From Rhizobium tropici CIAT 899 (GTDB taxonomy: Bacteria; Pseudomonadota; Alphaproteobacteria; Rhizobiales; Rhizobiaceae): DNA of 64,000 nt. The stretch lies in the NCBI RefSeq assembly GCF_000330885.1, contig NC_020062.1, positions 938,374 through 1,002,373 on the forward strand, read 5' to 3'. Numbering within the stretch: position 1 is the stretch's first letter; every line of letters starts with the position of its first letter. Made by a program: the position numbers and the translations under genes. Shown piece after piece: positions 10,962 to 35,937 of this stretch. The notes under the pieces were generated by a model. That model was not told the DNA's origin, made no database searches, and saw nothing but the letters and a program-made list of their open reading frames with translations.

Positions 10962-10982
10962 TCACCGCCTTTTCCAAGGTGG

Positions 10983-11900: not shown

Positions 11901-11937
11901 TGCGGGTCGGCCTCATTATGCCAGCCACTCTGCAACC

Positions 11938-13783: not shown

Positions 13784-13912
13784 CATTGCAGCCAGCTGTC
13801 GGCCAATTATGGCGGCGGCGAAGTGCCGTTGAGCTTGCGGAGCCGATGCCTGCCTGCTCGGACCCTGGCGGGCATATCGGACCTGCAAGACAATTGATGT
13901 TTGGAGAGCGAA

Positions 13913-14660: not shown

Positions 14661-14788
14661 TTGTTAAGTGCTGATCGAAAAATTTTAAGCTTGAAATTTT
14701 TCTTGCCAACGCTCACACATTTTCCTTCGGGTCACTGCAGATTTTCGGCAGGATAGACGCGAGGTGAACTCGGGAGGAGGAAGCCGCC

Positions 14789-17950: not shown

Positions 17951-18073
17951 ATCAAAACTCCATCTTTCCCCGGGGGGCAAATGAGAACTCGCGATCTTTG
18001 TTCCCGGTGAGCGAGCCTGTGAAAACGGATTGTTTCAATAGACTATAGGGCTGCTCTAGCTGAGTGCCGGGCG

Positions 18074-20209: not shown

Positions 20210-20361
20210 GGCGGCTCATCTCCCCATGATTAAGAACCGTGTAATGATGTTTAGCCTCGACTATAAATAATTCAGCGACGTTATGAAACCCCGACGGCCG
20301 ATCTTGGTCGCCTGTGAAATCGAAATAGCCCTGCCTAAGCTGATATGGCGTCTGAGAGACT

Positions 20362-21432
20362 TCAGCCGCGTAAAAGCGGCAGCAGCTGCTCGCCCTGCCG
20401 TTTGATCTCCGGCAGATATGGCGTGTCCGAGAGGACGAAGTGCGTGATGCCGAGATCGCGGTATTTGCGCAAGGAGCGGGCGACATCCTCTGCGGAGCCG
20501 ACCAGCCAGGTGGTGCCGGCGCCGCCACCGCCAAACTTGCCGGGCGCGGTATAGAGATTGTCATCGAGTATGTCGCCGCGCGCGGCGAGATCGAATAGCC
20601 GTTTCTGGCCCACCGCGATCGATTGCCGGTGATCGTTCCAGCCGACGCCCTTATTCTCAGCCATCTCGGCGACTTTCGCCTCGGCATCGATCCAGGCCTG
20701 CTCCGTCGTGTCGCGCACCAGCGTCGTTATGCGCAGCCCGAATTCCAGCGGCGGCAGATCGCGATCAAGATCTCTGCTGAGTGTCTTGAGCCGGCTGATC
20801 CGCTCAGCGATGTCGGCGAGCGGCTCGCCCCAGAAAAGCTGCACATCGGCCTCCGCGGCGGAGACACGCTCTGCCGCATCCGAAGCGCCGCCGAAATAAA
20901 GCTTGGGATGCAGGCGTTTCCCGCGAGGCTCGATACGCGGCGCCGCCGTGGATTCACTGACGCGAAAATGTTCTCCCTCGTAGGTAACGTTCTCTTCGGT
21001 CCAGAGCCTGCGGGTGAGCCGCATGAATTCCTTGGTGCGGCTATAGCGATGGGCTTGATCACCCTCGCTGTCGCCATAGGCGGCAAGATTGTCCTTGCCG
21101 GAAACGATGTTGACGCGCACCCGGCCGCCGCTCAGCTGATCCAGCGTGGCGGCAGCGGAGGCGAAGTGCGCCGGCCGCCAGTAGCCGGGGCGGATTGCGA
21201 TGAGCGGCTCGAAGCTGGTGGTGCGTGCGGTAAGTGCGGCCGCGACGGTGAAGGTGTCGGGGCGGCCCCAGCCGGTGCCGATCAATGCGCCCTTCCAGCC
21301 GTGATCTTCCAGGGCCTTGGCATGGCTGGTCAGGGTCTCCAGGCTGTTATGATTCTCGACGGCGGAATCGCCGCGATGGCCCGGTTTGACATCATTGGGG
21401 ATGTACCAAAGAAATTCGCAATTGCTGCTCAT
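20362..21432 (-). CDS. SsuD-like FMN-dependent alkanesulfonate monooxygenase (LLM class)
   Basis: 356 residues of the luciferase-like family, close to alkanesulfonate monooxygenase SsuD: N-terminal LWYIPNDV, then RPGYWRPAHFA and the GGRVRVNIVSGKD stretch. SsuD uses FMNH2 and O2 to release sulfite from sulfonates. It is the last gene of a minus-strand run that starts with a taurine/sulfonate-type binding protein, ATPase and permease, so the imported compound is probably its substrate. No NADPH:FMN reductase (SsuE) is encoded in the window. Desulfonation of taurine normally uses TauD, which is absent. Confidence 0.88.
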   Translation of the reverse strand: MSSNCEFLWYIPNDVKPGHRGDSAVENHNSLETLTSHAKALEDHGWKGALIGTGWGRPDTFTVAAALTARTTSFEPLIAIRPGYWRPAHFASAAATLDQLSGGRVRVNIVSGKDNLAAYGDSEGDQAHRYSRTKEFMRLTRRLWTEENVTYEGEHFRVSESTAAPRIEPRGKRLHPKLYFGGASDAAERVSAAEADVQLFWGEPLADIAERISRLKTLSRDLDRDLPPLEFGLRITTLVRDTTEQAWIDAEAKVAEMAENKGVGWNDHRQSIAVGQKRLFDLAARGDILDDNLYTAPGKFGGGGAGTTWLVGSAEDVARSLRKYRDLGITHFVLSDTPYLPEIKRQGEQLLPLLRG

Positions 21433-21516
21433 GCTGTGCCTGTCAGTCTTCTGAACCCAACGAGGGACTTGATGGTGAGGAGAGCCGTCAGCGATCTCGG
21501 CTTCCGGCCGCTGCGA

Positions 21517-22371
21517 CTAAAGCTTGCCCTTCCACGGAACGAGGACCGCCTCGAGGATACGAATGGCGGCGGAAAATGCGAAGGCGCAGACAGCAATGAT
21601 GCCGATGCCGACGAAGACGACGTCGGTTGCAAGAAACTGCGATGCCGACATAATCATGAAGCCGATGCCGCGCGTCGAAGCGATGAGTTCCGCCGCCACC
21701 AGCGTTCCCCAGCCGATGCCGAAGGCGATCCGGATACCGGTCAGGATTTCCGGCAAGGCCGAGGGCAGGACGACATTCAGGAAAAGTTGCAGCCGGTTTG
21801 CCCCCAGCGAACGCGCGGCATTGACCCGCTCCAGTGGCAGCGAACGCACGCCGGCCTGGGCGGACAGGCAGATCGGCGCGAACATGGCGAGCACGAGAAG
21901 GGTGATCTTCGAGGTTTCGCCGATTCCAAGCCATATGATCATCAGCGGCAGGTAGGAAAGGGGAGGCAGAGGCCAATAGAATTCGATGGGCGTATCCAGA
22001 ATTCCCTTTGCCCAGCGGTTGAGGCCCATCAGCAGACCGACGGGAATGCCTATCCCGATTGCGATGGCCGCAGCAACGACGATACGAAACAAGCTCGCCA
22101 ATATGTGCTCGGAAAGCGAGGCGCCGGCATAGCCATCGCGGTAGACGACGCCGATCTGCGTCAGCACCTCGTCAGGTCGAGGCAGGAAGAGGTGCGACAC
22201 CAGACCGAGCTTGGCGACGAGCCACCACAGCGCCAGGCAGGCGACCGCCGTGGCGATGCTGATGGCGACGGTGGGTTTTTCACCAACACCGAAGCCGGGA
22301 ATGCGAACCAGCTTCGGGTGTGTTTCCTTTTCAGATCCGGCGATTGGGTGCGTTTCGATAATATCGCTCAT
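21517..22371 (-). CDS. tauC: Taurine/sulfonate-type ABC transporter permease
   Basis: 284 residues, an inner-membrane permease of the SsuC/TauC (BPD-transp-1) family with about six hydrophobic segments. It has the cytoplasmic EAA loop in [32 protein letters not shown], which docks with the ATPase. It overlaps the end of the ATPase gene by 4 bases (22368-22371), so the two are translationally coupled. It is followed 84 bp later by the SsuD-like monooxygenase gene. Sulfonate specificity is inferred from the binding protein and monooxygenase. Confidence 0.9.
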
Positions 22372-23156
22372 GCCGCACTCCTGACGTGATCGGCGCTGTG
22401 AAGGATCGCGCGAATTTCGTCCCGAAGATTGCCGAATTCGGGTGATGACAGGATTGCTCTCGTATCGCCGCTGGCGGCAAAGCGATGTACGAAATCGAGT
22501 TCGAAACGCGCAACGACACGCCCCGGTCTCGGAGACATGACCAGAACCTCCGTTCCGAGGAAAAGCGCCTCCTCGATCGAGTGGGTAATGAAGAAAATAC
22601 GTTTGTCGGTTCTGGCCCAGACGGAGACCAGCAGTTCCTGCATCTGCTCGCGCGTCAGGCTGTCGAGCGCGCCGAAGGGTTCGTCCATCAGCAATATGTC
22701 GGGATCGGTAGCGAGTGCCCGGGCAATGCCGACGCGCTGGCGCATGCCGCCCGACAATTCATAGGGCAGAGCATTGGCAAAGTCGGTGAGGCCCACCAGC
22801 CGCAAAAGCTCGGATGCGCGATCGCGGCGTTCCCGCTTGCCCAGTCCGGCAAATTGCAGGCCGAGCGCCACGTTGTCGATGACGGACTTCCATGGCAGCA
22901 GCGAATCCTTCTGGAAGACGACGCCTCGATCGGCACCTGGCCTGGAAACGGGCCTTCCGTCGAGCGTGATCTTCCCCTCGGACAACGGCAGGAAGCCGGC
23001 GATCGCATTGAGCAAGGTGGATTTGCCGCAGCCGGACGCGCCGAGCGCTACGACGATACCGCGCTCCGGAATGTTGAAGGAAACGCGATCGAGCGCGTGA
23101 ACGGTTCTGCCGTCACGCGCTGCAAAGAAGACGCTGGCATGGTCGACTTGAAGCAT
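22368..23156 (-). CDS. tauB: Taurine/sulfonate-type ABC transporter ATP-binding protein
   Basis: 262 residues from the ATG at 23156 ([11 protein letters not shown]); the frame continues upstream to 23258, but that extension is not conserved in the family. Walker A is GASGCGKST, the signature [15 protein letters not shown], Walker [13 protein letters not shown] and the H-loop ITHS, as in TauB/SsuB. It powers the adjacent permease. Confidence 0.92.
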
Positions 23157-23211
23157 GGGCTTTCTCGATATTGCGACGCCGGCGCGACAAGCGCGCCGAC
23201 GCCAGGGAGGA

Positions 23212-24225
23212 TCAGTTGCTTGCGCTGACAAGCGCGTCAGCAGTGACGAATGCACCATAGTTCGGCAGGACTTCGGAGACTTTTCCCTGGCTCTTCAGGA
23301 AGGCCGCAGTATCCTTGAGGATCTTGGCAGCGCCGGATTGGTCGCCACCGCCGAGCCATGCTGCCGATGCCTGCACATCGGGCGTCAGCAGCGTGAGGTT
23401 CTTGAGCGCGGCGGCCTGCTGGTCCGCCGTGCCGCCGAGCAGCTTTGCGAGCGCCTTGGCGTTGTCGCTGTCCGGCCCCCAGGCGGCCTTATCCGCTGCG
23501 AACGAGGCGTAGTATTTGTTGATCACCGAGGCGTAGGCCTTCAGGAATTTCGGATTGTCTGCGGCAAATTTCGAGGTTGCGACCCAGGCGGAAAACGTCG
23601 GAGCGCCTTTGTCAGCGACGTCCTTGGATGTCACCAGCACCTTGCCGTTCTTCTTCAGCTCGGTGAGCGCCGGGTCCCAGACAAAACCGCCGTCGATATC
23701 GCCGCGATTGTAGCTTGCGACGATTTCCGGCTGCGGAACGGCGAAGACCTGTACGTCCTTTTCGCTCAGGCCAAGAGACTTGATGAGAGCGAGCAGCTGA
23801 TAGTGGTCGGTGGAAACGGGGGCCGCCGCGAGCTTCTTGCCCTTCAAATCGGCGAGTGTGTTGATGCCGGAGCCATTACGCACCACGAGCGCTTCATCGA
23901 CGCCGGAGATGGACGAGAGGTAGAATGCCTTCACCTCCAGCCCGCGCGAGGCGGCAGCGGCAAACGGGCTTGAGCCGACATAGCCGATCTGGACGTCGCC
24001 GGATGCGATGGCGGCGAAGATCTCAGCTCCGGAATTGAATTTGCGGAAATCGATCTCATAGCCGGTCTCTTTGGCGAACTCGCCGTTGGCGATCGCGACA
24101 GAGGAGGGCAGGGCATCGGTCTGATAGGCGACGACGACCTTCTTGTCGGCAGCGGCCGCGCCGACCGCCATCGAAATGCTGGCGAGACCCATCACGGCCG
24201 CAGTGATCAGTGTGTTGAACTTCAT
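23212..24225 (-). CDS. tauA: Taurine-type ABC transporter substrate-binding protein
   Basis: 337 residues with a Sec signal peptide ([20 protein letters not shown], cleavage near AAA-AD). The mature protein follows E. coli TauA in wording: [15 protein letters not shown], the [19 protein letters not shown] stretch, [21 protein letters not shown]. It binds sulfonates in the periplasm and delivers them to the permease. It is the first gene of the minus-strand operon, with a 299-bp upstream region carrying the TATAGACTATA motif at 24331-24341. Taurine is the best guess; other aliphatic sulfonates are possible. Confidence 0.88.
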
Positions 24226-24326
24226 AACTAGTCCCCTTGGCCGGATCAGATCTGCCGGCGGTTCCGTGAGTGCAATGCGCAGAACCTAGCGAAATCGGGG
24301 AGTGGATCGATAGAAATAGCAAACTA

Positions 24327-24341
24327 TTTTTATAGACTATA
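24327..24341. promoter_or_regulatory. Sulfur-island motif, copy upstream of tauA
   Basis: TTTTTATAGACTATA, containing the 11-bp palindrome TATAGACTATA (TATAG-N-CTATA). The same 15 bases occur at 24968-24982 in front of the divergent monooxygenase operon. It lies about 105 bp upstream of the tauA start. It is a probable regulator-binding site or a promoter element shared by both sulfur operons. Confidence 0.55.
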
Positions 24342-24524
24342 ATAGGAATTGTTTGTCTGAATTCGTACAGACTGCGACCGTGGCATCTTTCCAGCAAAGG
24401 AAACAACCGGCAGCCATCAACATATGAACTGTAGCGCCTACCCTCGTGAGGACAGCCGACCCACGCCTCGATAGCGAAAGAGCCGAAATTTAAGGTCGCT
24501 TGCGACGTGACCCGGATGGGGCCA

Positions 24525-24758
24525 TCAGGTCATCCGCCGGAGCAATGCAATCAAAGCATCTGCGTTGTCATTGGTTTCAAGCGAGAGCAGGTGCTTGTCC
24601 GCGAGCTCACCAATCGCAAGAACGACCTCGCGTTCCGCCCATCCCGCCATGATCGCAGCGCTCACCAATTCTCGATAAGCGGCTTGAAGCGCGTCCTGGC
24701 AGCGAATGTCCCGATCAGGGTCATCATCGGTCACGAATGGTCGTGCGATATCTGGCAT
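24525..24758 (-). CDS. Conserved hypothetical small protein (77 residues)
   Basis: 77 residues, acidic, mostly helical, with no signal peptide or membrane segment: DALQAAYRELVSAAIMAGW, then EREVVLAIGELADKHLLSL. The composition and third-base GC fit a real gene, and short proteins with this wording are familiar to me as hypothetical proteins in Rhizobium. It stands between the two divergent sulfur operons on the tauA strand, about 300 bp upstream of tauA. Its function is unknown. Confidence 0.6.
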   Translation of the reverse strand: MPDIARPFVTDDDPDRDIRCQDALQAAYRELVSAAIMAGWAEREVVLAIGELADKHLLSLETNDNADALIALLRRMT

Positions 24759-24967
24759 GGCCGAAAGGTGAACTGATTTGCGGGGTTTGGCAATCTATTG
24801 CATGCAATTGCTGTAGACATGGCCTCCACGGCTGAACTGGCTATCCGTCGAGGTTCTCGCCGGGCATCGTCAATGCCGCTACGCAATTTTCTCGAGCAAC
24901 TGCCGATTTTTTCCGCATCCGGCGGAAGAAAAAGAAAGCTGTTTCTTAAATAACTTAAAATCTATGT

Positions 24968-24982
24968 TTTTTATAGACTATA
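24968..24982. promoter_or_regulatory. Sulfur-island motif, copy upstream of the S-substituted cysteine salvage operon
   Basis: TTTTTATAGACTATA with the palindrome TATAGACTATA at 24972-24982, identical over 15 bases to the copy upstream of tauA. It ends 43 bp before the ATG at 25026, consistent with an operator over or next to a promoter. Confidence 0.55.
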
Positions 24983-25025
24983 GCGCTCCATGGTCGACAT
25001 TGAGCGAAAACATGGATGAAACGGC

Positions 25026-26018
25026 ATGTCTTATCTCCTTAGTCTTCTCGACAAGAGTCCGATCGAACAGGGGCTCAGTTCCACCGATGCGCTTGGCGCC
25101 ACGACACGGTTGGCCGTTAGGGCCGAAGAACTTGGCTATCATCGCTTTTGGGTCGCCGAACACCATAATATGACGAACCTTGCAAGTTCAGCGCCAGAAG
25201 TCCTGATTGCCCATCTTCTTGCCCGAACTTCGAGGATCCGCGTCGGCTCCGGCGGCATCATGCTGCAGCATTACAGCGCCTACAAGGTTGCCGAGACTTT
25301 CAATCTCCTGGCTTCGTTGGCGCCGGGGCGCGTGGATCTCGGTGTCGGCAAGGCGCCGGGTGGATTTCCGCTCTCGACGCGGGCATTGCAGCGCGCGTTC
25401 GATCAAGAAAAGAAGCCTGACTTCGCCGAGCAGCTTTCCGATATCAACAGCTATCTTGCGGCCGACCTTCATTCCGATGGCGCGCTGGCGACGCCGTTTC
25501 CGCCACGCGCGCCGGAGCGCTTCCTTCTTGGCGCCAGCGTCGAGAGTGCGAAGCTCGCCGCGGAGAAGGGCTGGAGGCTGGTGTTTGCCGGCCATCTGAA
25601 CGGCGATCCGGAAAATCTGCGCAATACCTTCGAAGCCTACGCAAATGCGACGGGCGGCAAGGTGCCGATCCTGGCGCTCGCAGCCTTTGCTGCCGAAAGC
25701 CAAGCCCATGCCCGTGAGCGTGTCGGTCAGCTGCGCATCGTCAAGCTCTTCCTGCCCAACGGTCAAAGCGTCAATGTCGGCACCCAGGAGCAGGCGGCGG
25801 AATTTGCGCGTCAGGCGGGCTTTTCGGAATTCCGGACCGAGGAGAAGGCGCCGAGCGTGCTGCATGGCACGGCGGCGCAGATCCGCGCCGAGCTTGACGC
25901 GCTCCATCACCGTTACGGCGTCGAGGAATTCGTGCTCGACACGCCGGCGCTGACCGCGATCGAACGGCTCAACTCCATAGAATTGCTCGCCAAAGAACGC
26001 CTTTCCCTCGTTGCCTGA
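25026..26018 (+). CDS. LLM class flavin-dependent monooxygenase (MsnO8/YtmO-CmoO-like)
   Basis: 330 residues of the luciferase-like family in the small MsnO8 branch: N-terminal DKSPIEQGLSSTDA, RFWVAEHHN, VGSGGIMLQHYS, and GRVDLGVGKAPGG. B. subtilis YtmO (CmoO), which oxidises N-acetyl S-alkylcysteines to sulfoxides, belongs to this branch. It is first in an eight-gene plus-strand operon and is followed after 24 bp by a second, larger LLM monooxygenase gene. The role as S-oxidase is inferred from gene order and family, not from specific residues. Confidence 0.82.
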   Translation: MSYLLSLLDKSPIEQGLSSTDALGATTRLAVRAEELGYHRFWVAEHHNMTNLASSAPEVLIAHLLARTSRIRVGSGGIMLQHYSAYKVAETFNLLASLAPGRVDLGVGKAPGGFPLSTRALQRAFDQEKKPDFAEQLSDINSYLAADLHSDGALATPFPPRAPERFLLGASVESAKLAAEKGWRLVFAGHLNGDPENLRNTFEAYANATGGKVPILALAAFAAESQAHARERVGQLRIVKLFLPNGQSVNVGTQEQAAEFARQAGFSEFRTEEKAPSVLHGTAAQIRAELDALHHRYGVEEFVLDTPALTAIERLNSIELLAKERLSLVA

Positions 26019-26042
26019 GCGGCCTGTCCCAGGAGGATCATC

Positions 26043-27392
26043 ATGGCTCAAAAACACGTCACTTTCGGTATCATGCTGCAGGGTCCCGGCGGCCACATGA
26101 ATGCCTGGAAGCATCCGAGCGTTCCGGCCGATGCCAGCACCAATCTGAACTTCTTCGTCAGGACCGCCCGCAAGGCCGAAGAGGCGGGTATTGCCTTTGC
26201 CTTCGTCGCGGACGGACTTTACATCAACGAACAGTCGATCCCGCATTTCCTCAATCGCTTTGAGCCGCTGACCATTCTGTCCGCGCTTGCCGCCTTCACG
26301 ACGAAACTTGGGCTGGTTGGCACAGTTTCGACATCCTATAGCGATCCCTTCACCATCGCACGGCAGTTTGCCTCGCTCGATCTCATCAGCGGCGGCCGCG
26401 CCGGCTGGAACGCGGTGACCTCACCGCTCGAAGGCTCCGGCCGCAACTATAGCCGCGAGCATCCCGAGCATGAGTTGCGCTACGAGATCGCCGACGAATA
26501 TCTCGATGCGATCAAGGGGCTCTGGGACTCGTGGGACGACGATGCCTTCGTGCGCGACCGCGAGACCGGCGTCTACGCCGACAAATCCAAGCTGCATCGC
26601 CTGAACCACAAGGGCCGTTTCTTCCGCATCGAAGGCCCCCTCAATATCGGTCGCTCCAAGCAGGGCCAGCCGGTGGTCTTCCAGGCCGGCGCCTCCGATT
26701 CGGGCATCCGGCTGGCCGGCAAACATGCGGATGCCGTCTTCACCAATGGCGGGCCGCTGGAAGACGCGAAGATCTTCTACAAGCAGGTCAAACAATCCGC
26801 GATCGCGCATGGCCGCAGCGCCGCCGATGTCGGCATCTTCCCCGGCATCGGCCCGATCGTCGGCGCGACCCAGGAGGAGGCGGAAGCCAAGTATCAGGCG
26901 ATCCGCAATCTCGTCACCATCGAGGAGGCGCTCGTCTATCTCGGTCGCTTCTTCGATCATCACGATTTCAGCGCCTATCCGCTGGACGAGTCGTTTCCCG
27001 ATCTTGGCGATATCGGCCGCAACAACTTCCGCGCTACGACCGATCGTATCAAGAAGACGGCGCGGGAGAAGGGGCTCTCCTTGCGCGAGGTGGCGCTCGA
27101 TGCGGCAACGCCGCGAACCTCCTTCATCGGCACGGCCGAGCACATTGCCAGTGAAATCATCCGCTGGGTGGACGAAGAGGGCGCCGACGGCTTCATCCTC
27201 GGCTTCCCCGTTATCGGTGAAGGCTTCGACGATTTCTCCAGGCATGTCCTGCCGATCCTGACCGAGCGCGGCTATTTCGATCCCGCTTTGAAAGGCGAGA
27301 CGCTCCGTGATCATCTCGGGCTCCCATATCGCGAAAGCCGTTATGCGGCAGAGACTGCCGATATCGAACCCGCAAAGGCCGTAGGCGCTTGA
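26043..27392 (+). CDS. NtaA/SnaA/DmoA-type FMN-dependent monooxygenase (CmoJ/YtnJ-like)
   Basis: 449 residues, the longer LLM class typified by nitrilotriacetate monooxygenase NtaA and dimethylsulfide monooxygenase DmoA: FGIMLQGPGGHMNAWKHP near the N-terminus, GTVSTSYSDPFTIARQFASL, and AGWNAVTSP. B. subtilis YtnJ (CmoJ), which cleaves the C-S bond of S-alkylcysteine sulfoxides, is in this class. AGGAGG lies just upstream of the ATG. It is followed after 15 bp by the M20 amidohydrolase gene. Confidence 0.85.
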   Translation: MAQKHVTFGIMLQGPGGHMNAWKHPSVPADASTNLNFFVRTARKAEEAGIAFAFVADGLYINEQSIPHFLNRFEPLTILSALAAFTTKLGLVGTVSTSYSDPFTIARQFASLDLISGGRAGWNAVTSPLEGSGRNYSREHPEHELRYEIADEYLDAIKGLWDSWDDDAFVRDRETGVYADKSKLHRLNHKGRFFRIEGPLNIGRSKQGQPVVFQAGASDSGIRLAGKHADAVFTNGGPLEDAKIFYKQVKQSAIAHGRSAADVGIFPGIGPIVGATQEEAEAKYQAIRNLVTIEEALVYLGRFFDHHDFSAYPLDESFPDLGDIGRNNFRATTDRIKKTAREKGLSLREVALDAATPRTSFIGTAEHIASEIIRWVDEEGADGFILGFPVIGEGFDDFSRHVLPILTERGYFDPALKGETLRDHLGLPYRESRYAAETADIEPAKAVGA

Positions 27393-27407
27393 GCCAGGAC
27401 GATCACC

Positions 27408-28607
27408 ATGAACGCCATCATCAAAACCGCTTCGATTACCGATCCAATCGAGACAGGGATCGCCGCCTATCTCGATGAAATCATCGCGCTTAGGCACGAC
27501 CTGCATCAATATCCCGAACTGGCCTTTCAGGAGCATCGCACCGCCAAAAAGGTGGCCTCGCTGCTCGCGGAATGGGGATACGACGTAGCAACAGGTATCG
27601 CTGGTACAGGTGTAGTCGCGACCCTGAGGCGAGGTAACGGCAACCGCAGCATCGGTATCCGCGCCGACATGGATGCCCTGCCGATCGAAGAGGCGTCCGG
27701 GCTCGCCTATGAGAGTGCCAATCCCGGCGTCATGCACGCCTGCGGTCACGATGGACATACGTCGATCTTGCTGGCCGCTGCCCGCTATCTTGCCGAAAGC
27801 GGCAATTTCAGCGGCACGGTGCGGTTGATTTTCCAGCCGGCCGAAGAAATCGGCGCAGGTGCACGCAAAATGTTGTCGGAGGGACTTTTCGATCACTTCC
27901 CGGTCGATGCGGTCTTCGGCCTGCACAATTGGCCCGGCGTGCCGGCGGGGCAATTTGGCTTCGTTGCCGGCCCGGCGATGGCCTCAGTCGATAAGGCGGT
28001 CATCACGATCGTTGGAAAGGGCGGGCATGGTGCCGAGCCGCATCGTGCGGTCGACCCGGTGCTGGCTTCGGCCTCGTTCATCACGGCCCTGCAAAGCGTC
28101 GTCTCGCGCAATATCGATCCTCAGGAAATGGCGGTCGCAACGGTCGGTTCCATTCATGCCGGTTCGGCTTCGAACGTCATCCCGGAAAGCGTGGAGATGA
28201 AGCTGACCGTGCGTGCCTACAATGAGACTGTTCGGGCGAGATTGCAGGAACGAATTTCCGCCCTGGCGCGCGCGCAGGCGGAAAGCTTTGGCGCCGTGGC
28301 GGAGGTCGATTACCGCCTCGGTTTTCCCGCGCTCGTCAATCATGCCGAAGAGACGGAATTCGCCCGCAATGTCGCCTTGCAGGCGCTTGGGGCCGCTGCC
28401 GTGGAGGCGGATTTCCGGCCGCGGACTGCGAGCGAAGACTTTGCCTTCCTGCTGCAGGCAAAGCCCGGAAGCTACCTCTTCGTCGGCAATGGCGACAGCG
28501 CGCCGCTGCATAGTGCCCGCTACGATTTCAACGATGCCATCATCGCGCCGGCAGCCCGCTACTGGGTGCGGCTGGCCGAAACTTTCCTCGCGAATGACAA
28601 CGGGTGA
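27408..28607 (+). CDS. M20 family amidohydrolase (N-acyl amino acid deacylase, YtnL/YxeP-like)
   Basis: 399 residues of the M20D/HipO family, a two-metal hydrolase. The metal site is visible as HACGHDGH (about residues 109-116) and the catalytic Glu pair in QPAEEIGAGA; the lid domain contains GKGGHGAEPH. Family members remove acetyl or other acyl groups from amino acids. In the Bacillus ytm and yxe operons a homologue deacetylates N-acetylcysteine at the end of the salvage route. Here it lies between the monooxygenase and the acetyltransferase genes, which supports the same role. Confidence 0.88.
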   Translation: MNAIIKTASITDPIETGIAAYLDEIIALRHDLHQYPELAFQEHRTAKKVASLLAEWGYDVATGIAGTGVVATLRRGNGNRSIGIRADMDALPIEEASGLAYESANPGVMHACGHDGHTSILLAAARYLAESGNFSGTVRLIFQPAEEIGAGARKMLSEGLFDHFPVDAVFGLHNWPGVPAGQFGFVAGPAMASVDKAVITIVGKGGHGAEPHRAVDPVLASASFITALQSVVSRNIDPQEMAVATVGSIHAGSASNVIPESVEMKLTVRAYNETVRARLQERISALARAQAESFGAVAEVDYRLGFPALVNHAEETEFARNVALQALGAAAVEADFRPRTASEDFAFLLQAKPGSYLFVGNGDSAPLHSARYDFNDAIIAPAARYWVRLAETFLANDNG

Positions 28608-28615
28608 CGAACGAC

Positions 28616-29164
28616 ATGAGCGACACGTTTCTTTATACGACCACGCTGGACCCGCGCGCCAAGCCCCTGATCGACGAACTGATCCACGAATATGACAGTC
28701 GCTACGGCAGCTATTTCAATGCTGAAGGGGCGGCTGCCGAACTCAACCGCTATCCGCCGGAGGCCTTCGCGCCACCGCATGGCAATTTCCTGCTCCTTCT
28801 CCGAAACGGGGAGACGATCGGCGGCGGCGCTTTCAAGCACTATGACGAGCAAACCGCCGAATTCAAACGGATTTGGACGCGGCACGATCTCCGTCGTCAG
28901 GGATTGGCGCGTAGGCTGCTTGTCGAACTGGAGGTCCAGGCGGCGCGGCAAGGCTATCGCCGCATCTACCTGACGACAGGCTTTCGCCAACCCGAGGCGG
29001 TCGGGCTTTATCTCAACAACGGCTACACAGCCCTGTTCGATACCTCCGTCGATCCGGAAATCTACAAGAGCCTGCCTTTCGAGAAGGATATCAGCCATTT
29101 GGCTCTGGCCTATATCGCCGAAACCTCGGGCTCGCAGCAGCGCTTGGCAGCTGCGGGCCGGTAA
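28616..29164 (+). CDS. GNAT family N-acetyltransferase (SnaA/YxeL-like)
   Basis: 182 residues from the ATG at 28616; a GTG at 28604 overlapping the amidohydrolase stop is an alternative. The GNAT acetyl-CoA loop is visible as RHDLRRQGLARRLL (R-x-x-G-x-A), then the C-terminal helix EAVGLYLNNGYTAL. In B. subtilis the first step of S-substituted cysteine breakdown is N-acetylation by a GNAT enzyme (SnaA or YxeL). The pairing with an M20 deacylase and two LLM monooxygenases makes this the likely function. Confidence 0.83.
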   Translation: MSDTFLYTTTLDPRAKPLIDELIHEYDSRYGSYFNAEGAAAELNRYPPEAFAPPHGNFLLLLRNGETIGGGAFKHYDEQTAEFKRIWTRHDLRRQGLARRLLVELEVQAARQGYRRIYLTTGFRQPEAVGLYLNNGYTALFDTSVDPEIYKSLPFEKDISHLALAYIAETSGSQQRLAAAGR

Positions 29165-29204
29165 TGCGTAGCGGATCAACGACAATCAAAAAGGGGTAAG
29201 CATT

Positions 29205-30986
29205 ATGGCGCTGACGACGGGTTTTGCAGATGTCGATCGAAGCACTGGAGCCGCCGAGACGAAGACTGATTATTCGCGTTATCGCATCGTGCCGGCGAGG
29301 CACCCTGGGCGAACCGCCGGCACGATCTTTGCCGCACTCGTCATGGCGGTCGTCCTCTACTCCACCTTTACCAATCCGCGATGGGGCTGGGGCGTCTTCG
29401 CCGAGTGGTTCTTTGCGGAGCCGGTGCTGGTTGGCCTTGGCAGGACGCTGCTTCTGACAGCGCTTGCTGCGGTCTCGGGCTCCATCCTCGGAACGGCATT
29501 GGCTCTGGCGCGTGTATCGAAGTCGCCCCTGCTTGCGAGCCTCTCTTGGGGCTATATCTGGCTGCTGCGTTCGATCCCGATGATCGTGCTGCTGCTGGTT
29601 CTCAACAATCTCGGCTATCTCTATGAAACCATTAGCATTGGAGTCCCGTTCAGCGACAAGGTTCTGTTCGATTATCCGACCACGCAGCTCCTGACGCCGT
29701 TTGCTGCGGCCTTTCTCGGGCTGACGCTGAACCAGTCGGCCTTCTTTGCCGAAATCGTGCGCGGCGGCATTCTTTCGGTCGATCAGGGGCAACTGGAAGC
29801 GGCCGCGTCCCTCGGTCTGTCGCGCCGCCGTCAGGCGTTCCGCATCGTTCTGCCGCAGGCGATGCGCTCCATCCTGCCCACGGGCTTCAACGAGATCATC
29901 GGCCTCGCCAAGAGTACCTCCATGGTCTACGTGCTGGCCCTGCCGGAACTCTTCTACACGGTGCAGGTCATCTACCGCCGCAATCTGGAAGTCATTCCAC
30001 TGCTGATGGTGGCAACCGTCTGGTATCTCGTCATCATGACCGTGCTATCGATTGCCCAGCACTATATCGAGCGCTATTTCTCCAAGGGTGCGGTGCGCAA
30101 TCCGACACCTTTGCCGTTTCAGGCATTCTTCAAACGCTTCCAGCGGCCGCTGCCCGCTACTGTAGACGGTAGTTCGGACACCAGGGCATTCGCCGCTTTT
30201 CGGAGCGTGACAGATCTTCGTGCCAAGGGCGGTGCCGTGCGCATTCACGGTATTTCGAAGAGCTTCGGCACGCTGAAAGTTCTCGACGATGTCGAGCTTA
30301 ACCTGCCGGCCGGCAGCGTGACGGCTATCATCGGCCCGTCGGGCTCGGGAAAATCGACGCTGCTGCGCGCCATCAATCATCTCGAGCGCGTCGACAGCGG
30401 CTTCATCTCCGTCGATGGCGAACTTGTCGGTTACACGCAGAAGGGCGAGGTGCTCTATGAGCTCAAGGAGAAGGATATTCTGAAACGCCGGACCGACATC
30501 GGCATGGTCTTTCAGAACTTCAACTTGTTCCCGCATCTCACAGTTTTAGAAAACATTATCGAGGCACCCATCCAGGTACGTGGGGTGAGCCGCGACGAGG
30601 CGACCGCCTTGGCGCAAGAGCTTCTCGCTCGCGTCGGCCTTAGCGATAAGATCGATGCCTATCCCCGCCAGCTCTCCGGCGGCCAGCAGCAGCGTGTTGC
30701 CATCGCCCGTGCCTTGGCACTGCGGCCGAAGGTCCTCCTCTTCGACGAGCCGACCTCCGCACTTGATCCTGAGCTCGTGGGCGAAGTGCTCGATGTGATC
30801 AAGGAGCTTGCGCGCACCGGCACGACGCTCGTCATCGTCACCCACGAGATCGGCTTTGCCCGCGAGGTCGCCGATAGCATCGTCTTCATGGAGGGCGGCC
30901 ACGTTATCGAAGCCGGCACGCCCACACAGATCCTCAACGATGCGAGGCATCCGCGCACGCGCGCTTTCCTCGCCAAGGTTCTCTAG
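29205..30986 (+). CDS. Fused amino-acid ABC transporter permease and ATP-binding protein
   Basis: 593 residues. Residues 1-290 form a polar-amino-acid permease with about five membrane segments and the EAA loop in [17 protein letters not shown]. Residues 340-593 form an ATPase with Walker [10 protein letters not shown] (about 377), signature LSGGQQQR (about 488) and Walker [14 protein letters not shown]. The single chain replaces the separate permease and ATPase subunits of the cystine-type transporters (TcyL, TcyM, TcyN). Two binding-protein genes follow. The substrate is probably an S-substituted cysteine or related sulfur amino acid, inferred from the operon. Confidence 0.9.
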
Positions 30987-31079
30987 CAGTCGCAGGCAAG
31001 CATTCGACGCTCCGACGCGGCAGGCGTCCGGATCATTATAACAGCATCAACAACTTATAATTGAAAAAGGAGAAGGAAA

Positions 31080-32024
31080 ATGACATTCATTGAGAGAGCA
31101 AGATATATCGTTGCCGGCGTTCTGACGGCGGTAGCGATGAGTGGGACGCCGACGATTGCGGCCGAAAAGTTCAACCTGAGCCCGGATACATCCAATCGCA
31201 TCCGTGCCGAGAAGGACGAGGCAGCGATCAAGGCGATTGCGCCGGGCTTCAAGTTCGTCAATCCCGGCAAGTTCACGGTCGCGATCAACCCGTGGGATCC
31301 GCCGATCGCTACCTACGCGACCGACGCGAAAACGGTCGTCGGCACCGATCCCGATATCGCGCAGTTGCTCGCCGACTCCCTCGGCCTGCAGCTCGACCTG
31401 GTACCGGTCGCCTGGGAGGACTGGCCGCTCGGCGTTTCCTCAGGAAAGTATGATGCTGTCATTTCCAACGTGACGGTTACGGAAGAGCGCAAGCTGAAGT
31501 TCGATTTCTCCACCTATCGCAGGGACGTACTCGGCTTCTACGTGAAGGCCGACAGCAAGATTACCTCGATCAAGGAACCCAAGGATGTCGCGGGTCTCAA
31601 GGTGATCACCGGGGCCGGCACCAATCAGGAGAAGATCATTCTGGAATGGGACCGGCAGAATGTGGCAGCCGGCCTGAAGCCCATCGAGGTTCAATATTAC
31701 GACGACCGTGCCGCCGCCGATCTTGCCTTGCAGTCCGGTCGTGCCGATGTCGAATTCAATCCGAATGCGACCCAGGCCTATAAGGCGGCCATCAACGGCA
31801 CGAGGAAGCTTGTCGGCACCGTCTCAGGCGGTTGGCCGCTGACGGCCGAAATCGCCGTGACGACGAAAAAGGGCGCCGGCCTTGCCGATGCCATCACCCT
31901 CGCACTCAACGATCTGATCAAGAACGGCAAGTATGGCGAAGTGCTGAAGCGCTGGAGCCTGACTGCCGAAGCGGTCGATCAATCCAAGACCAACCCTGCG
32001 GGCCTGCCGAAGAGCGGTTCGTAA
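31080..32024 (+). CDS. Amino-acid ABC transporter substrate-binding protein 1
   Basis: 314 residues with a Sec signal peptide ending near TIAAEKF. It is a family 3 (polar amino acid) binding protein with a lengthened N-terminal segment (FNLSPDTSNRIRAEKDEAAI) before the core, and the LPVAWEDWPLGVSSGKYD-type and DFSTYR regions. AGGAGAAGGA precedes the ATG. The next gene is a paralogue with the same layout, like the tandem TcyJ and TcyK of Bacillus. It would capture the imported sulfur amino acid in the periplasm for the fused permease-ATPase. Confidence 0.9.
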   Translation: MTFIERARYIVAGVLTAVAMSGTPTIAAEKFNLSPDTSNRIRAEKDEAAIKAIAPGFKFVNPGKFTVAINPWDPPIATYATDAKTVVGTDPDIAQLLADSLGLQLDLVPVAWEDWPLGVSSGKYDAVISNVTVTEERKLKFDFSTYRRDVLGFYVKADSKITSIKEPKDVAGLKVITGAGTNQEKIILEWDRQNVAAGLKPIEVQYYDDRAAADLALQSGRADVEFNPNATQAYKAAINGTRKLVGTVSGGWPLTAEIAVTTKKGAGLADAITLALNDLIKNGKYGEVLKRWSLTAEAVDQSKTNPAGLPKSGS

Positions 32025-32101
32025 TGTTGGTCGGGCGGACCGGCGTCAGTGGGGCTCACGTCGGTCCGCTCCCATCCATCTCAAATGGAGATACAGGTTC
32101 C

Positions 32102-33040
32102 GTGACTATCCGCACTATTTTCAGAACTGCGCTTGCTGCCACAGTGATGGTTGCCCTGACCGGTCTTGCTCCGGCAATGGCAGCCGAAGATTTCGATCTG
32201 AGCCCGGAACAGCCGGGACGTCTTCACGCGGCGAAAAACGAAGCGGCGATTGCCGCTATTCCGAAGGATTTCAAGTTCGTTACATCAGGCACATTCACCG
32301 TGGCGGTCGCACCAGGCGGTCCGCCGCTTGCCACCTATGCGACGGACGCCAAGACGGTGGTCGGTGCCGATCCCGATTATGCCTATGCGGTTGCCGATGT
32401 GCTCGGACTGAAGCTCGAGCTTGTCCCGGTCGCCTGGATCGACTGGCCGCTCGGGCTGACCTCGGGCAAATACGACGCCGTCATCTCCAATGTCGGCGTT
32501 ACCGAGCAGCGCAAGGAGAAGTTCGATTTCTCCACCTATCGACAGGGCCTGCACGGCTTCTTCGTCAAGAACGACAGCAAGATCACTGGTATCAAGGAGC
32601 CGAAGGACGCTGCCGGCCTGCGCATCATTGTCGGCGCCGGTACAAACCAGGAGCGCATCCTGCTGAAATGGAGCGATGAGGATGTCAAAGCCGGCCTGAA
32701 GCCGATCGAGCTGCAATATTACGACGACGAGGCGGCGAGCCTTCTGGCTCTGCGTTCTAACCGCGCCGATGTCATCGTGCAGCCGCACGCCCAGCTTGTC
32801 TACATCGCCGCTCGCGACAAGAACATCAAGCGCGTGGGCACGCTGAGCGCCGGTTGGCCGGATCGCTCGGATGTCGCGATCACCACGCGAAAGGGCAGTG
32901 GCCTTGCGCCGGCCCTGACGCTCGCGACGAATGGACTGATCAAGGATGGCACCTATGCCAAGATCCTCGATCATTGGCATCTTGCCGAGGAAGCCTTGCC
33001 GACGTCGGAAACCAATCCGCCAGGCCTGCCGAAATTTTGA
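32102..33040 (+). CDS. Amino-acid ABC transporter substrate-binding protein 2 (paralogue of the preceding gene)
   Basis: 312 residues from the GTG at 32102, which gives a clean signal peptide (VTIRTIFRTALAATVMVAL, cleavage near AMAAED). An ATG at 32024 overlapping the previous stop would add 26 residues before the signal. Shared words with the preceding protein include YATDAKTVVGADPD versus YATDAKTVVGTDPD, WPLGLTSGKYDAVISN and KFDFSTYR, so the two arose by tandem duplication. The pair may widen the substrate range of one transporter. Confidence 0.87.
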   Translation: MTIRTIFRTALAATVMVALTGLAPAMAAEDFDLSPEQPGRLHAAKNEAAIAAIPKDFKFVTSGTFTVAVAPGGPPLATYATDAKTVVGADPDYAYAVADVLGLKLELVPVAWIDWPLGLTSGKYDAVISNVGVTEQRKEKFDFSTYRQGLHGFFVKNDSKITGIKEPKDAAGLRIIVGAGTNQERILLKWSDEDVKAGLKPIELQYYDDEAASLLALRSNRADVIVQPHAQLVYIAARDKNIKRVGTLSAGWPDRSDVAITTRKGSGLAPALTLATNGLIKDGTYAKILDHWHLAEEALPTSETNPPGLPKF

Positions 33041-33052
33041 GGAGACAGCCGC

Positions 33053-34093
33053 ATGAGCCGCCAAGCCCCATCGATCAACCATATCGGCTTTCTCACACCT
33101 GGAAATTATCCGGACGAGGATCCACTCGCCGGTCTGGAACAGACCCTGCAATTGCTCGAATACGGAGAGCAGAGGGGATTCAACAGCGCCTGGGTTCGCC
33201 AGCGGCACTTGGAGCCCGGGATTTCCTCGGCGAGTGCCTTTCTGGCGGCTGCGACCCAGCGCACGCGCCGTATCGAGCTTGGCACCGCCGTCATACCCAT
33301 CGGCTATGAAAGCCCCTATCGGCTGGCCGAGGATCTGGCGACCGTGGATGTGCTCTCCCGCGGCCGGTTGAACATCGGCCTCAGTGCCGGCCGTCCGTTG
33401 CATGCGGACCTGATCGGGCCGCTTGCTTTCGATGGCGATTGGGAGAACCATGATTTCTCCCACCAAAGGGTGCTGCGCTTTGCCGATAATCTGAGAGGAA
33501 CCTATGTCGGCAATCACGATACGCTTATCAAGACACCGTTCGGCCCGCAGCGTCCGCGCCTCCAGCCCTATGCGAAAGGGTTGATCGATCGCATCTGGTA
33601 TGGCGGCGGCTCGCTGCGTTCGGCCGAATGGGCCGGCCGTAACGGCTTCAATCTGCTGATCGGCAATGTCACAACAGGCGAGCAGACCGACGATTTCTTC
33701 GTTGCTCAATCGCGACAGCTGGAAACCTATCGCGCGTCTGGCGGCGATACGAGGCGGATGGCGCTCGGACGGGTCATCGTGCCCTTCGACAGCGCGGATG
33801 CGATCACGCGCAAACGCTATACGGACTACGCCGCCGGCCGCTATGAGCGCACACTTTCACCTCAGGGCGAACGCCGCACGCTTTTCGCCCGCGATATCGT
33901 CGGCTCCTCGGACGAGATAGTGGAGCGTCTGCGCAAGGATCCGATCTTGCCTCATGTCAACGAATTCCGGCTGGAGCTGCCCTATGAGTTCCACGACGAG
34001 GAATATCGGCAGATCATCCATGATTTCGTGACGCTGATCGCTCCGGAGCTTGGCTGGAAGGAGACCACGCTCCTGCGACGATCCGCATCCTGA
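33053..34093 (+). CDS. LLM class flavin-dependent monooxygenase
   Basis: 346 residues of the luciferase-like family: IGFLTPGNYPDEDP, GFNSAWVRQRHLEPG, ELGTAVIPIGYESPYRLAED, GRLNIGLSAGRP. GGAGACAGCC lies before the ATG, 12 bp after the second binding-protein gene, so it is the last gene of the operon. It is the third LLM enzyme in this operon and has no obvious counterpart in the Bacillus ytm operon. It may act on a different oxidised sulfur intermediate. Confidence 0.85.
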   Translation: MSRQAPSINHIGFLTPGNYPDEDPLAGLEQTLQLLEYGEQRGFNSAWVRQRHLEPGISSASAFLAAATQRTRRIELGTAVIPIGYESPYRLAEDLATVDVLSRGRLNIGLSAGRPLHADLIGPLAFDGDWENHDFSHQRVLRFADNLRGTYVGNHDTLIKTPFGPQRPRLQPYAKGLIDRIWYGGGSLRSAEWAGRNGFNLLIGNVTTGEQTDDFFVAQSRQLETYRASGGDTRRMALGRVIVPFDSADAITRKRYTDYAAGRYERTLSPQGERRTLFARDIVGSSDEIVERLRKDPILPHVNEFRLELPYEFHDEEYRQIIHDFVTLIAPELGWKETTLLRRSAS

Positions 34094-34193
34094 GGGCTGC
34101 GGCCGCCCACATCCGCGATGTTGGATCGACGGGCTCTCGCCCGTCAGATCCGGTTCGCTTCTGTCCTGAAGACCGCTCGGGCTATAGCGCCGG

Positions 34194-34619
34194 TTAGCAG
34201 GCGAGAGAGCTCGCGGCGTCCTTTCCTTTGAGAATCCGCTCGGCGAGATGCAGCGCTTCCTCACGGGACGCGACGATTTCCATTTTTATGCCGAATGCCT
34301 TCGTTGCAAGGCTCATCTGCAGCTGCATGGCGCCACGCTTGATTGCGCTTGCCTCGATACCGATGACTGCCTTGCAAACCGTTGCGAGTGCCGCCTTGTT
34401 TTTCTTCAGCCATATGCCGCGTGCTTTGCGATCCTTATGCTCTTCGGCGTGCTCGTCGCCTTCCATGATGATGACAAAGGGCATTGAAATGGCAAGCAGG
34501 GCGTCCATCTCGTGCTCCCATTGTTTAGAATAACCCGGCTGGATAGCCGCAGCGGAATGGCGCACGATCGGCCAAAGAGAGACGTCGTGAAAGGTGAAGG
34601 TAGCCGCATCGATTGTCAT
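34194..34619 (-). CDS. Hypothetical protein (141 residues) next to FAD monooxygenase
   Basis: 141 residues, no signal or membrane segment: an N-terminal beta-alpha stretch, TFHDVSLWPIVRHSAAAIQP, then ISMPFVIIMEGDEHAEEHKD and a helical C-terminal half ending EALHLAERILKG. The alternating layout resembles SpoIIAA/STAS-like folds, but I do not recognise the family with confidence. It follows the FAD monooxygenase gene by 8 bp and is probably cotranscribed, so it may assist or regulate that enzyme. Confidence 0.7.
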   Translation of the reverse strand: MTIDAATFTFHDVSLWPIVRHSAAAIQPGYSKQWEHEMDALLAISMPFVIIMEGDEHAEEHKDRKARGIWLKKNKAALATVCKAVIGIEASAIKRGAMQLQMSLATKAFGIKMEIVASREEALHLAERILKGKDAASSLAC

Positions 34620-34627
34620 GGTGTTCC

Positions 34628-35818
34628 TCAGGCGATCTTATCGGTGATGGCCGCAAACAGCATGGCCGCGCCGCGTTCCGACGTGTCGATGGCGCAAGTC
34701 GCCCGCTCGCGCATGTCGGCTTCGTAATCCAGCAAGGCCGTGCAGGTGGTCTTTGTCTCCCTGCCGGCTTCGGCCAGGATCTGCGCCAGCATGCGGGCAT
34801 CTTCGAGCGCGGTATTGGCACCTAGTCCGCCGGCAGGGCTCATCGCATGGATGGCATCGCCCAAAAGCGTCACTGGACCGAACGGCCAAAGGGCGTCGGG
34901 GCGCCCGCTTCTGACCGAGAGCGCGGCAACGGCAGTCGCTCTGCTCCGGCTGACGATCTGCTTCAGCTCCGGATGCCAGCCGCGCATGACGGTTCTCAGC
35001 AAGACGGGCAGATCTTGGGTATGGTCATATGTTTCCAGTCCAAGCCTTTGCCGCGGACCGATCAGTGCCCAATAGAGATAATCGGTAACCGACGTCAGCT
35101 TGCAATCGGGCGCGAGAATGGCGGCAAGGTTCGGAAGATCGTTGCGGAAGCGCATGAGATCGAAGATCGCCGTGCACCCATCGGCAAAGACTACCGTCGT
35201 TCCATTCCCAAGCAGGTCGGCAGCATCGTTCAGTGGCATTTCGCTTTTGCCGTAGACACATATAGAACCTGTATCCGCTGGCTCGGCATAGGGTGCCAGC
35301 TGGCGGCGTACCTGCGAGTTCACGCCGTCGGCGCCGACCAACAGATTGCAGGAAACCGGGGCGGCACCGTCGAACTGCACCTCGACGCGACCGTGGTCCA
35401 TGCAGCGATAGTGGGTGAAAGCATGTCCGAGATGAACATGATCTTCGATCCCCGACAGCAGGATTTCGCGAAGGGTGAGGCGATTGACACTCAGATCGCC
35501 GTCGTCGTCATTCTCGCCCGTATCCCAGCTCGCCGGCGTGCGGCCCGTAACGGGCAGAAGCTGAGGGGTCAGGAAGCACGCGGATCGAGGGCTCGTCGAG
35601 GCGGTCGCTCGAAAGAGGTCAAACAGAGCGGTCGGCAGGCATGATGCCAGCGCTTGCTGCCCGTTTGCGTCGATACGAATGCGATAGCCTTGAAGGCGGC
35701 TATCGGCAGCCGGGTCGCGCTCATATACGTCAAAACGGATGCCGGCGCGCTTCAATCCCTGTGCGAGGCACAAGCCACCGAGGCCAGCGCCGATGATGAC
35801 AACATGAAAGTCCTGCAT
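34628..35818 (-). CDS. FAD-dependent aromatic-ring-hydroxylase-like monooxygenase
   Basis: 396 residues of the group A (PHBH-fold) flavin monooxygenases. The dinucleotide site VVIIGAGLGGLCLAQGLKRAG is at residues 5-25. The second FAD motif, LLGDAIHAMSPAGGLGANTALEDA, lies near residues 318-341, and NLLVGADGVNSQVRR carries the DG motif. Such enzymes use NAD(P)H and O2 to hydroxylate aromatics or drug-like compounds. It is divergent from an AraC regulator gene 119 bp away and followed by a small unknown gene. The substrate is unknown. Confidence 0.9.
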   Translation of the reverse strand: MQDFHVVIIGAGLGGLCLAQGLKRAGIRFDVYERDPAADSRLQGYRIRIDANGQQALASCLPTALFDLFRATASTSPRSACFLTPQLLPVTGRTPASWDTGENDDDGDLSVNRLTLREILLSGIEDHVHLGHAFTHYRCMDHGRVEVQFDGAAPVSCNLLVGADGVNSQVRRQLAPYAEPADTGSICVYGKSEMPLNDAADLLGNGTTVVFADGCTAIFDLMRFRNDLPNLAAILAPDCKLTSVTDYLYWALIGPRQRLGLETYDHTQDLPVLLRTVMRGWHPELKQIVSRSRATAVAALSVRSGRPDALWPFGPVTLLGDAIHAMSPAGGLGANTALEDARMLAQILAEAGRETKTTCTALLDYEADMRERATCAIDTSERGAAMLFAAITDKIA

Positions 35819-35937
35819 GGGTCTTCTATTCCATTCATTGGTCGATTTCGATCTTTCGAGAGAAAATATAGCCGAAGGCCGCCGGAGCGTGATAACGACA
35901 TTCGGTCTTTAAATGTTGCAAAGCGGCCAAACGAAAC

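Follow-up and report, generated by a model that had tools for sequence, protein, structure and literature searches.

A probable CmoO/CmoJ-type operon for S-substituted cysteine salvage in Rhizobium tropici CIAT 899 and its predicted sulfur operator

Gene content of the operon

We analysed a 64,000-nucleotide stretch of Rhizobium tropici CIAT 899 (NC_020062.1, C4:938374-1002373 within a 6.69-Mb genome of four contigs; hereafter the window), concentrating on eight consecutive plus-strand genes at 25026-34093 which make up a candidate operon for the salvage of S-substituted cysteines (Table 1). A sequence-only reading of this DNA had named the families of these genes in order, and the open reading frame (ORF) list and profile searches recovered all eight as first named, including the M20 deacylase, the GNAT acetyltransferase, the amino-acid ATP-binding cassette (ABC) importer with its fused permease-ATPase and two binding proteins, and a third luciferase-like monooxygenase (LLM). 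The intergenic gaps along the eight genes are 24, 15, -4, 40, 93, 77 and 12 bp. Gene 5 encodes a single 593-aa chain with PF00528 at residues 93-290 and PF00005 at residues 360-518, the two binding proteins (genes 6 and 7) are 63% identical to each other, and gene 7 was assigned a GTG start on account of the signal peptide that this gives (the ORF as listed mechanically begins at 31832). Plasmid p11515TR-A of Rhizobium sp. 11515TR is ~90% identical to window positions 20000-36500.

Table 1. Features of the operon region in window coordinates, followed by genomic sites that nearly match the predicted operator and the genes they precede
Feature	Position	Strand	Evidence or context
Gene 1, CmoO-like MsnO8-family LLM	25026..26018	+	TIGR03558 332 bits, cut-off 167
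Gene 2, CmoJ (YtnJ)-type LLM	26043..27392	+	TIGR03860 NtaA/DmoA 501 bits, cut-off 280
Gene 3, M20 aminoacylase	27408..28607	+	TIGR01891 amidohydrolase 367 bits, cut-off 154; Pfam M20
Gene 4, GNAT N-acetyltransferase	28604..29164	+	PF00583; cut-off passed in Pfam only
Gene 5, fused permease-ATPase, amino-acid ABC importer	29205..30986	+	BPD_transp_1 + ABC_tran
Gene 6, amino-acid binding protein 1	31080..32024	+	SBP_bac_3
Gene 7, amino-acid binding protein 2, GTG start	32102..33040	+	SBP_bac_3
Gene 8, third LLM, luciferase-type	33053..34093	+	PF00296 Bac_luciferase
Predicted operator TCTATGTTTTTTATAGA(CTATA), TCTA-N9-TAGA palindrome	24961..24982	+	43 bp before gene 1
Conserved RAA-N5-TTYCTTAWAW element	24934..24951	+	5' of operator; perhaps a second regulatory site
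Half-operator TATAGACTATA	24331..24341		~105 bp before first gene of divergent sulfonate-type operon
Divergent operon: TauA-like binding protein, ATPase, permease, SsuD-like LLM	20362..24225	-	ORFs
Site L111			MetQ/NlpA, over cut-off
Site L112/L194			Cystine-type binding protein, transporter genes (by eye), NtaA-family LLM ~4 kb along
Site L115			SsuD-like LLM, 191 bits, below cut-off
Site L116/L198			cysHDN divergent from Rrf2 A; CysH 267, CysD 528, CysN 698 bits, all over cut-offs
Site L117/L199			cysG (543 bits, over cut-off), then nitrite/sulfite-reductase-like gene under every cut-off
Site L119/L204			NtaA-family LLM, then SfnB (NtaA-SfnB over cut-off), second SfnB-like gene (by eye), another LLM
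Site L121/L196			SBP5 transporter, LLM ~5 kb along
Site L122			MsuE (250 bits, over cut-off), then hydrolase-like gene (by eye)

Assignment of gene 2 and comparison with Bacillus pathways

Gene 2 scored 550 bits against Bacillus subtilis YtnJ (PDB 1tvl/1yw1), with the next distinct PDB family at 291 bits and DszA at 254 bits; its top PDB match, from Burkholderia, was an entry named nitrilotriacetate monooxygenase (655 bits). YtnJ itself is ~57% identical to close relatives of gene 2. In a maximum likelihood tree (41 rows, without YxeK, midpoint root, with three long-branch rows that are all among the paralogs), gene 2 falls in a 19-row proteobacterial clade (support 100/100), and this clade together with Pantoea-type, Bacillota and YtnJ sequences makes up a 27-row group (90/94). 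A 30-row group with gene 2 and YtnJ (97/98) excludes 11 NtaA-type paralogs of 31-43% identity, and nearest the rest inside it are three rows at 49-51% identity, which come from stretches with sulfonate-type ABC genes. The tree does not put gene 2 in another subfamily, and by sequence it is assigned to the CmoJ (YtnJ)-type C-S monooxygenases. As this gene adjoins an MsnO8-type enzyme, the layout is of the ytm/cmo rather than the yxe type. The sequence-only reading had seen a counterpart of both Bacillus operons; its ytm half is borne out by the YtnJ score, the tree and the MsnO8 neighbour, whereas its yxe half is not supported, as a CmoO-like enzyme is present (YxeK being outside the comparison).

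The other genes were compared with what is found at CmoJ loci of Bacillota and with PDB entries. Gene 1 is 43-44% identical to homologues at two Bacillota CmoJ loci, and among the best 120 of its 5608 homologues the named entries were from Rhizobiaceae plus one Brucellaceae, with no Bacillus CmoO among those named. Gene 3 belongs to the M20 deacylases at family level, and its best PDB match was YxeP/ScmP (1ysj, 262 bits); this match is non-discriminating, because none of its 15 PDB matches is an entry named YtnL. For gene 8, the nearest named family was TIGR04027 (KPN_01858), at 93.9 bits well under the cut-off of 412.9 bits, and two Bacillota CmoJ loci hold LLM genes which are 26-27% identical to it. 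Its AlphaFold model (predicted local distance difference test score 86) had 8k74 as first fold match (template modelling score 0.72, 24-25% identity), with 2i7g, PuwE and luciferases as further near folds. These matches, luciferase-like monooxygenases headed by 8k74, do not fix a reaction for gene 8.

A separate observation concerns plasmid pAMI4 of Paracoccus aminophilus (L104), where a GNAT gene is followed by six LLM genes in series (8372-16021), one 47% identical to gene 8 and another 50% identical to gene 1.

The ytmI (cmo) operon of B. subtilis contains the genes for SnaA, TcyJKLMN, CmoO, CmoI, CmoJ, RibR and SndA/YtnL, and is controlled by CymR. It has in common with the R. tropici operon a CmoJ-type monooxygenase beside a second one that is putatively of the CmoO type in R. 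tropici, a GNAT, an M20 deacylase and an amino-acid ABC importer that has two binding proteins; sulfur control of the Rrf2 type is plausible for either operon. The rhizobial operon differs in its fused permease and ATPase, its extra third LLM, for which no Bacillus counterpart was matched, the absence of a riboflavin kinase from the eight genes, a GNAT and binding proteins which are not demonstrably orthologous, and gene order. The B. subtilis yxe (scm) system shares the logic of acetylation, oxygenation and deacetylation and the GNAT, LLM, M20 and ABC families, as described in PMC9706529, which defines the yxe loci, and PMC12757645, but the rhizobial operon has a CmoO-like gene and no S-(2-succino) lyase among its eight families. 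The literature describes ytm/cmo-type S-alkylcysteine salvage as widespread among soil bacteria, the chemistry of CmoO and CmoJ (PMC10863075), and YtnL, YhaA and ScmP as M20 N-acetylcysteine deacetylases of B. subtilis (PMC12757645); the same passages of PMC12757645 call the S-alkylcysteines targeted by the ytn and yha clusters unclear. Rhizobia are not named in the available passages of PMC10863075, PMC12757645 and PMC9706529.

Conservation and distribution

The operon is a variant of a known pathway class which is well conserved in rhizobia. We compared 86 loci, consisting of 80 from a scan of contigs with gene 8 (the best 80 of 244 relatives) and six plasmid loci, which cover Rhizobium, Pararhizobium, Ensifer, Sinorhizobium, Microvirga and other Rhizobiales and differ in length. 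All eight genes lie on one strand in unchanged order in 84 of these, the exceptions being L029, where the contig starts within the operon, and L035, which has no cmoJ match, and the gene arrangement is therefore not due to chance. The frequency of individual genes is not measurable from this set, since each locus was chosen for its resemblance to the operon DNA, to CmoJ or to the third LLM. Anywhere within the 86 loci, a DsbA-like gene was found in 44, tauA in 28, an MsuE-like gene in 24 and a GGCT-like gene in 17; on plasmids of R. phaseoli and R. ruizarguesonis the operon is followed by DsbA, MsuE and GGCT genes and then by a divergent tauABC.

The description of the operon as alphaproteobacterial proved too narrow, as the betaproteobacterium Comamonas has the identical eight-gene order, and plasmid pPag3 of the gammaproteobacterium Pantoea vagans (L105) carries the CmoO/CmoJ/M20/GNAT set without the third LLM. 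The Pantoea locus has an MsnO8 LLM, an amidohydrolase, CmoJ (58% identical), a GNAT and an importer with two binding proteins in common with R. tropici, but its permease and ATPase are separate, the order is another, and there is no third LLM within the stretch examined. Identical eight-gene order was also found in Haematobacter (L107) and Terrarubrum, and sulfur-related genes adjoin several of these operons, with ssuE ahead in Comamonas, a cysteine synthase gene after it in Haematobacter, and in Terrarubrum a position between an ssu-type operon and malY. Roseomonas (L191), also with a cysteine synthase gene nearby, keeps the operon order with the M20 gene missing, the second binding protein of the Agrobacterium vitis operon is more like protein 1 than protein 2, and in Phyllobacterium the second binding protein and gene 8 are absent within the stretch examined.

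At a threshold of E <=1e-120, CmoJ relatives were found in 3/289 genomes sampled class-wide and 13/199 sampled family-wide (own genome included in each). We examined 15 neighbourhoods of CmoJ relatives from these samples, the window's own excluded, of which ten (L174-L183) hold gene 1, gene 2 and the transporter, and five (L184-L188) contain CmoJ-like genes but not this transporter. Six of the ten CmoJ-anchored operons include gene 8, which is facultative, as the other four (L174, L177, L181 and L183) lack it; the third LLM had rightly been noticed as an addition in the window, but it is not a fixed part of such operons. L183 also has no M20 match, and gene 2 of L179 reads with one stop.

A predicted operator and the genes that follow it

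The palindrome TCTA-N9-TAGA ahead of gene 1 was found in 77 of 91 cmoO upstream regions, where ~0.009 would be expected per region; the regions are not independent, because many are near-identical. The pattern TCTAYNNNNTTTATAGA has five exact and eight one-mismatch places in the genome (13 in total), versus no exact and seven one-mismatch places for the reversed control pattern. From 37 distinct sites we obtained the consensus TTAGTCTACTAATTTTATAGACTAA, the core of which is partly given, because the sites were found using part of the pattern. Thirteen genomes of the genus, this one among them and contributing five places, together hold 33 exact operator places vs one reversed.

The operon itself aside, eight of the 12 near-matching genome sites precede sulfur genes or operons (Table 1), whereas a sulfur gene adjoins 0/7 reversed-pattern controls (8/12 vs 0/7, Fisher p 0.0065). 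A profile search of nine genes near the control sites found no sulfur gene among them; these genes encode phosphoenolpyruvate carboxykinase, a response regulator, LigA, CDP-diacylglycerol diphosphatase, TrbL and a member of a hypothetical family, and three are matchless. Within 11.5-kb stretches at the seven control sites there was no match to regulon proteins except at L125. We inspected 27 of the 29 exact places in other genomes for adjoining genes: nine lie before cmoO, four between cysH and an Rrf2 gene, two before SsuD-like and two before NtaA-like LLM genes, one each at a MetQ gene, an SBP5-type gene, an SfnB-like gene and a sugar-type ABC gene, two at TauD/AhpD-like genes and two at OsmC-like genes, with two unexplained (L136, L142). 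The SfnB-, TauD- and OsmC-like genes at sites in relatives score below their cut-offs.

Half of the palindrome is overlapped by the shorter motif TATAGWCTATA, which has two exact places in the 6.69-Mb genome, both within the 800-bp gap between the salvage operon and the divergent sulfonate-type operon and one of them being the half-operator at 24331-24341. In the 28 tauA upstream regions of relatives, ATAGWCTAT is present exactly in 22, with one mismatch in five and with two mismatches in one. TATAGWCTATA was considered as the whole operator and rejected, as it overlaps just one half of TCTA-N9-TAGA; if one mismatch is allowed, 20 genome places fit it, most of them background because the reversed pattern has 51. 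The form WATAGWCTATW occurs at six genome places, three of them inside the window, and one (C1:3699628) has no recognised sulfur gene nearby. An SfnG gene (613 bits, cut-off 383) has a related half-operator ahead of it. Letters similar to those of the RAA-N5-TTYCTTAWAW element, which has three genome places vs two for the reversed pattern, were seen in many cmoO upstream regions.

NAD_binding_9 proteins of the FAD/NAD(P)-binding type are encoded at two sites (L113:1706-3016 and L118:4-1416), and an FAD/NAD(P)-binding gene also lies opposite tauA in R. phaseoli. A sugar-type ABC ATPase gene has an operator both here (L123) and, as an exact site, in a relative (L139, 89% identical).

Candidate Rrf2 regulators

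The genome has four Rrf2 genes over the Pfam cut-off and a fifth match below it, and two of the four (A and B) lie at or near operator sites: Rrf2 A begins ~240 bp from the cysH site, and Rrf2 B is ~1.75 kb from the L118 site with one gene between and an SfnB gene beyond. CymR was the best-scoring equivalog model for both, which are both near sulfur genes, but they differ from CymR in lying under its cut-off and in having four cysteines each, grouped in the C-terminal half. The relative G498 has cmoO and an Rrf2 gene (83% identity to B) transcribed away from each other, and the DNA between them contains GTCTACTGATTTTATA, the second arm of which is degenerate. The pairing of Rrf2 genes with operators is an association; sulfur scavenging is most likely under the control of a CymR-like Rrf2 switch. 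Control by a CysB-like LysR protein was also considered, while it is two Rrf2 genes that are placed at or near the sites. Sulfur control of the salvage operon thus has independent support, and regulation, in the form of a predicted sulfur operator and candidate Rrf2 regulators, appears to be the new part of the system. Neither operator nor regulon was found described in open-access titles and abstract starts on Rrf2 and sulfur genes, rhizobia included, a search that did not cover RegPrecise.

Proposed pathway and alternative explanations

Taken together, the operon probably serves CmoO/CmoJ-type salvage of S-substituted cysteines, with sulfur shortage as its likely inducer. The fused ABC transporter and its pair of binding proteins would import S-alkylcysteine or its sulfoxide, and N-acetylation by the GNAT (gene 4) would form the first step of the pathway. 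Gene 1 may then S-oxidise the N-acetyl-S-alkylcysteine, and gene 2 would cleave the C-S bond of the sulfoxide to give an aldehyde and N-acetylcysteine sulfenic acid, which after reduction would be deacetylated to cysteine by gene 3 as a putative N-acetylcysteine deacetylase. An MsuE-type reductase, whose gene lies elsewhere in the genome and is preceded by an operator of the type found here, could supply FMNH2, and the third LLM may have another substrate, stereoisomer or product as its target. Control of transcription would be exerted at TCTA-N9-TAGA, with one of the two CymR-like Rrf2 proteins, or both, as the most likely regulator.

Several observations weigh against this interpretation. 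With regard to the enzymes and importer, orthology of the GNAT and importer to those of Bacillus is not shown: gene 4 and a GNAT encoded close to a Bacillota CmoJ gene share 28% identity across just 65 residues, and in a PDB search with binding protein 1, YtmK came at an E value of just 1.7e-5 and ranked below many other binding proteins, which does not mark the importer as specifically TcyJ/K-like. Rrf2 A and B scored 79.6 bits where the CymR model (NF047409) has a cut-off of 195, placing them outside that equivalog, and IscR almost equals CymR for both (74.7 and 78.9 bits). The palindrome is missing from 14/91 cmoO upstream regions (L014, L026, L042, L075, L076, L078-L081, L103, L106, L107, L109 and L110), including both Microvirga and all five hand-added distant genera. 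Outside the genus, exact operators numbered 16 vs 9 reversed in 99 family genomes, which is not clearly enriched and led us to reject the exact operator as a family-wide element, and 1 vs 1 in eight genomes of other families. The sulfur labels at the sites were assigned by us, post hoc, once the genes were known, and four of the 12 sites are uncounted, two with FAD/NAD(P)-binding genes (L113, L118), one with a sugar-type ABC gene (L123) and one with nothing clear (L120). Counting immediate genes alone, which drops L112 and L121, two ABC operons whose terminal LLM genes are kilobases away, gives 6/12 vs 0/7 (p 0.034), and as control L125 is 0.7 kb from the real site L118, the wider context gives 8/12 vs 1/7 (p 0.040). 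Finally, the pathway could also serve detoxification.

Under this alternative, the operon would detoxify electrophiles or clear their glutathione conjugates in a mercapturate-type manner, and sulfur recovery would be a by-product. This would fit the GGCT-like genes near the operon in 17/86 loci and the DsbA-like genes in 44/86, as well as the breakdown of S-alkyl glutathione, named in PMC10863075 as main source of S-alkylcysteine. Scavenging from outside is indicated by the dedicated importer, which has two binding proteins, and by an operator also found at cysHDN, cysG and flavin-monooxygenase operons, and we regard clearance as an unlikely primary role. Equally improbable is a yxe/scm-type pathway, in which S-(2-succino)cysteine would be N-acetylated, oxygenated directly to oxaloacetate and N-acetylcysteine, and deacetylated, leaving genes 1 and 8 with other roles. 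It makes use of the same GNAT, NtaA-family LLM, M20 and ABC set, and YxeP is the best PDB match of gene 3, but as noted above that match does not discriminate, and an MsnO8-type gene leads the operon and is kept with gene 2 in 84/86 loci. Gene 2 moreover groups with YtnJ in PDB score and tree (YxeK being outside the comparison), and the yxe locus, in the available passages of PMC9706529, lists no CmoO-type gene; on the grounds of the CmoO-like gene and the YtnJ grouping we rejected a yxe-type pathway as the main explanation.

The substrate might also belong to another organosulfur class (sulfones, sulfonates or thioethers), in which case the acetylation genes would have a different substrate of their own. 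An operator or half-operator also precedes SfnG, the NtaA-SfnB operon and an SsuD-like gene, and the third LLM, being under the cut-off of its nearest named family, has no subfamily assigned, but a GNAT/M20 pair for acetylation and deacetylation, together with binding proteins of the amino-acid type, suits an amino acid as substrate, and we consider use of another class very improbable.

Building on S-alkylcysteine salvage, a wider and more speculative scheme, which we put forward tentatively, is that a Rhizobium sulfur-scavenging regulon at TTAGTCTACTAATTTTATAGACTAA, run by two CymR-like Rrf2 paralogs, joins cysHDN and cysG to many two-component flavin monooxygenase operons, that the S-alkylcysteine operon lets symbionts feed on S-methylcysteine stored by legumes, and that the third monooxygenase extends the pathway, e.g. 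to the CmoJ-released aldehyde or the other sulfoxide isomer. In common bean, most S-methylcysteine is reported to be stored as gamma-glutamyl dipeptide (PMC6572574). The GGCT-annotated gene of bean-nodule isolates (e.g. R. phaseoli) fits such a dipeptide, and the window operon is without such a gene. In a Rhizobium phaseoli root-exudate transcriptome (PMC8581550), sulfur and luciferase terms matched once, in a reference. A known pathway with unclear natural substrates is now placed in named, culturable legume symbionts, with a suggested natural substrate and a testable regulatory context, and the predicted operator offers a route to listing uncharacterised sulfur genes of Rhizobium.

Neighbouring genes in the window

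The SsuD-like gene of the divergent operon scored 225-226 bits against alkanesulfonate monooxygenase models, below their cut-offs, and homologues of this operon in relatives are annotated as tauA, ATPase and permease. Close to it lies an additional LLM gene (14789-15880). One of the six WATAGWCTATW places is the half-operator AATAGACTATA at 18037-18047; an MscS-type channel gene (17111-17980, minus strand) lies 57 bp further on. Directly 3' of the eight-gene operon are an FAD monooxygenase gene (34628-35818, minus strand) and an AraC-family regulator gene (35938-36732, plus strand), both apparently unrelated to it.

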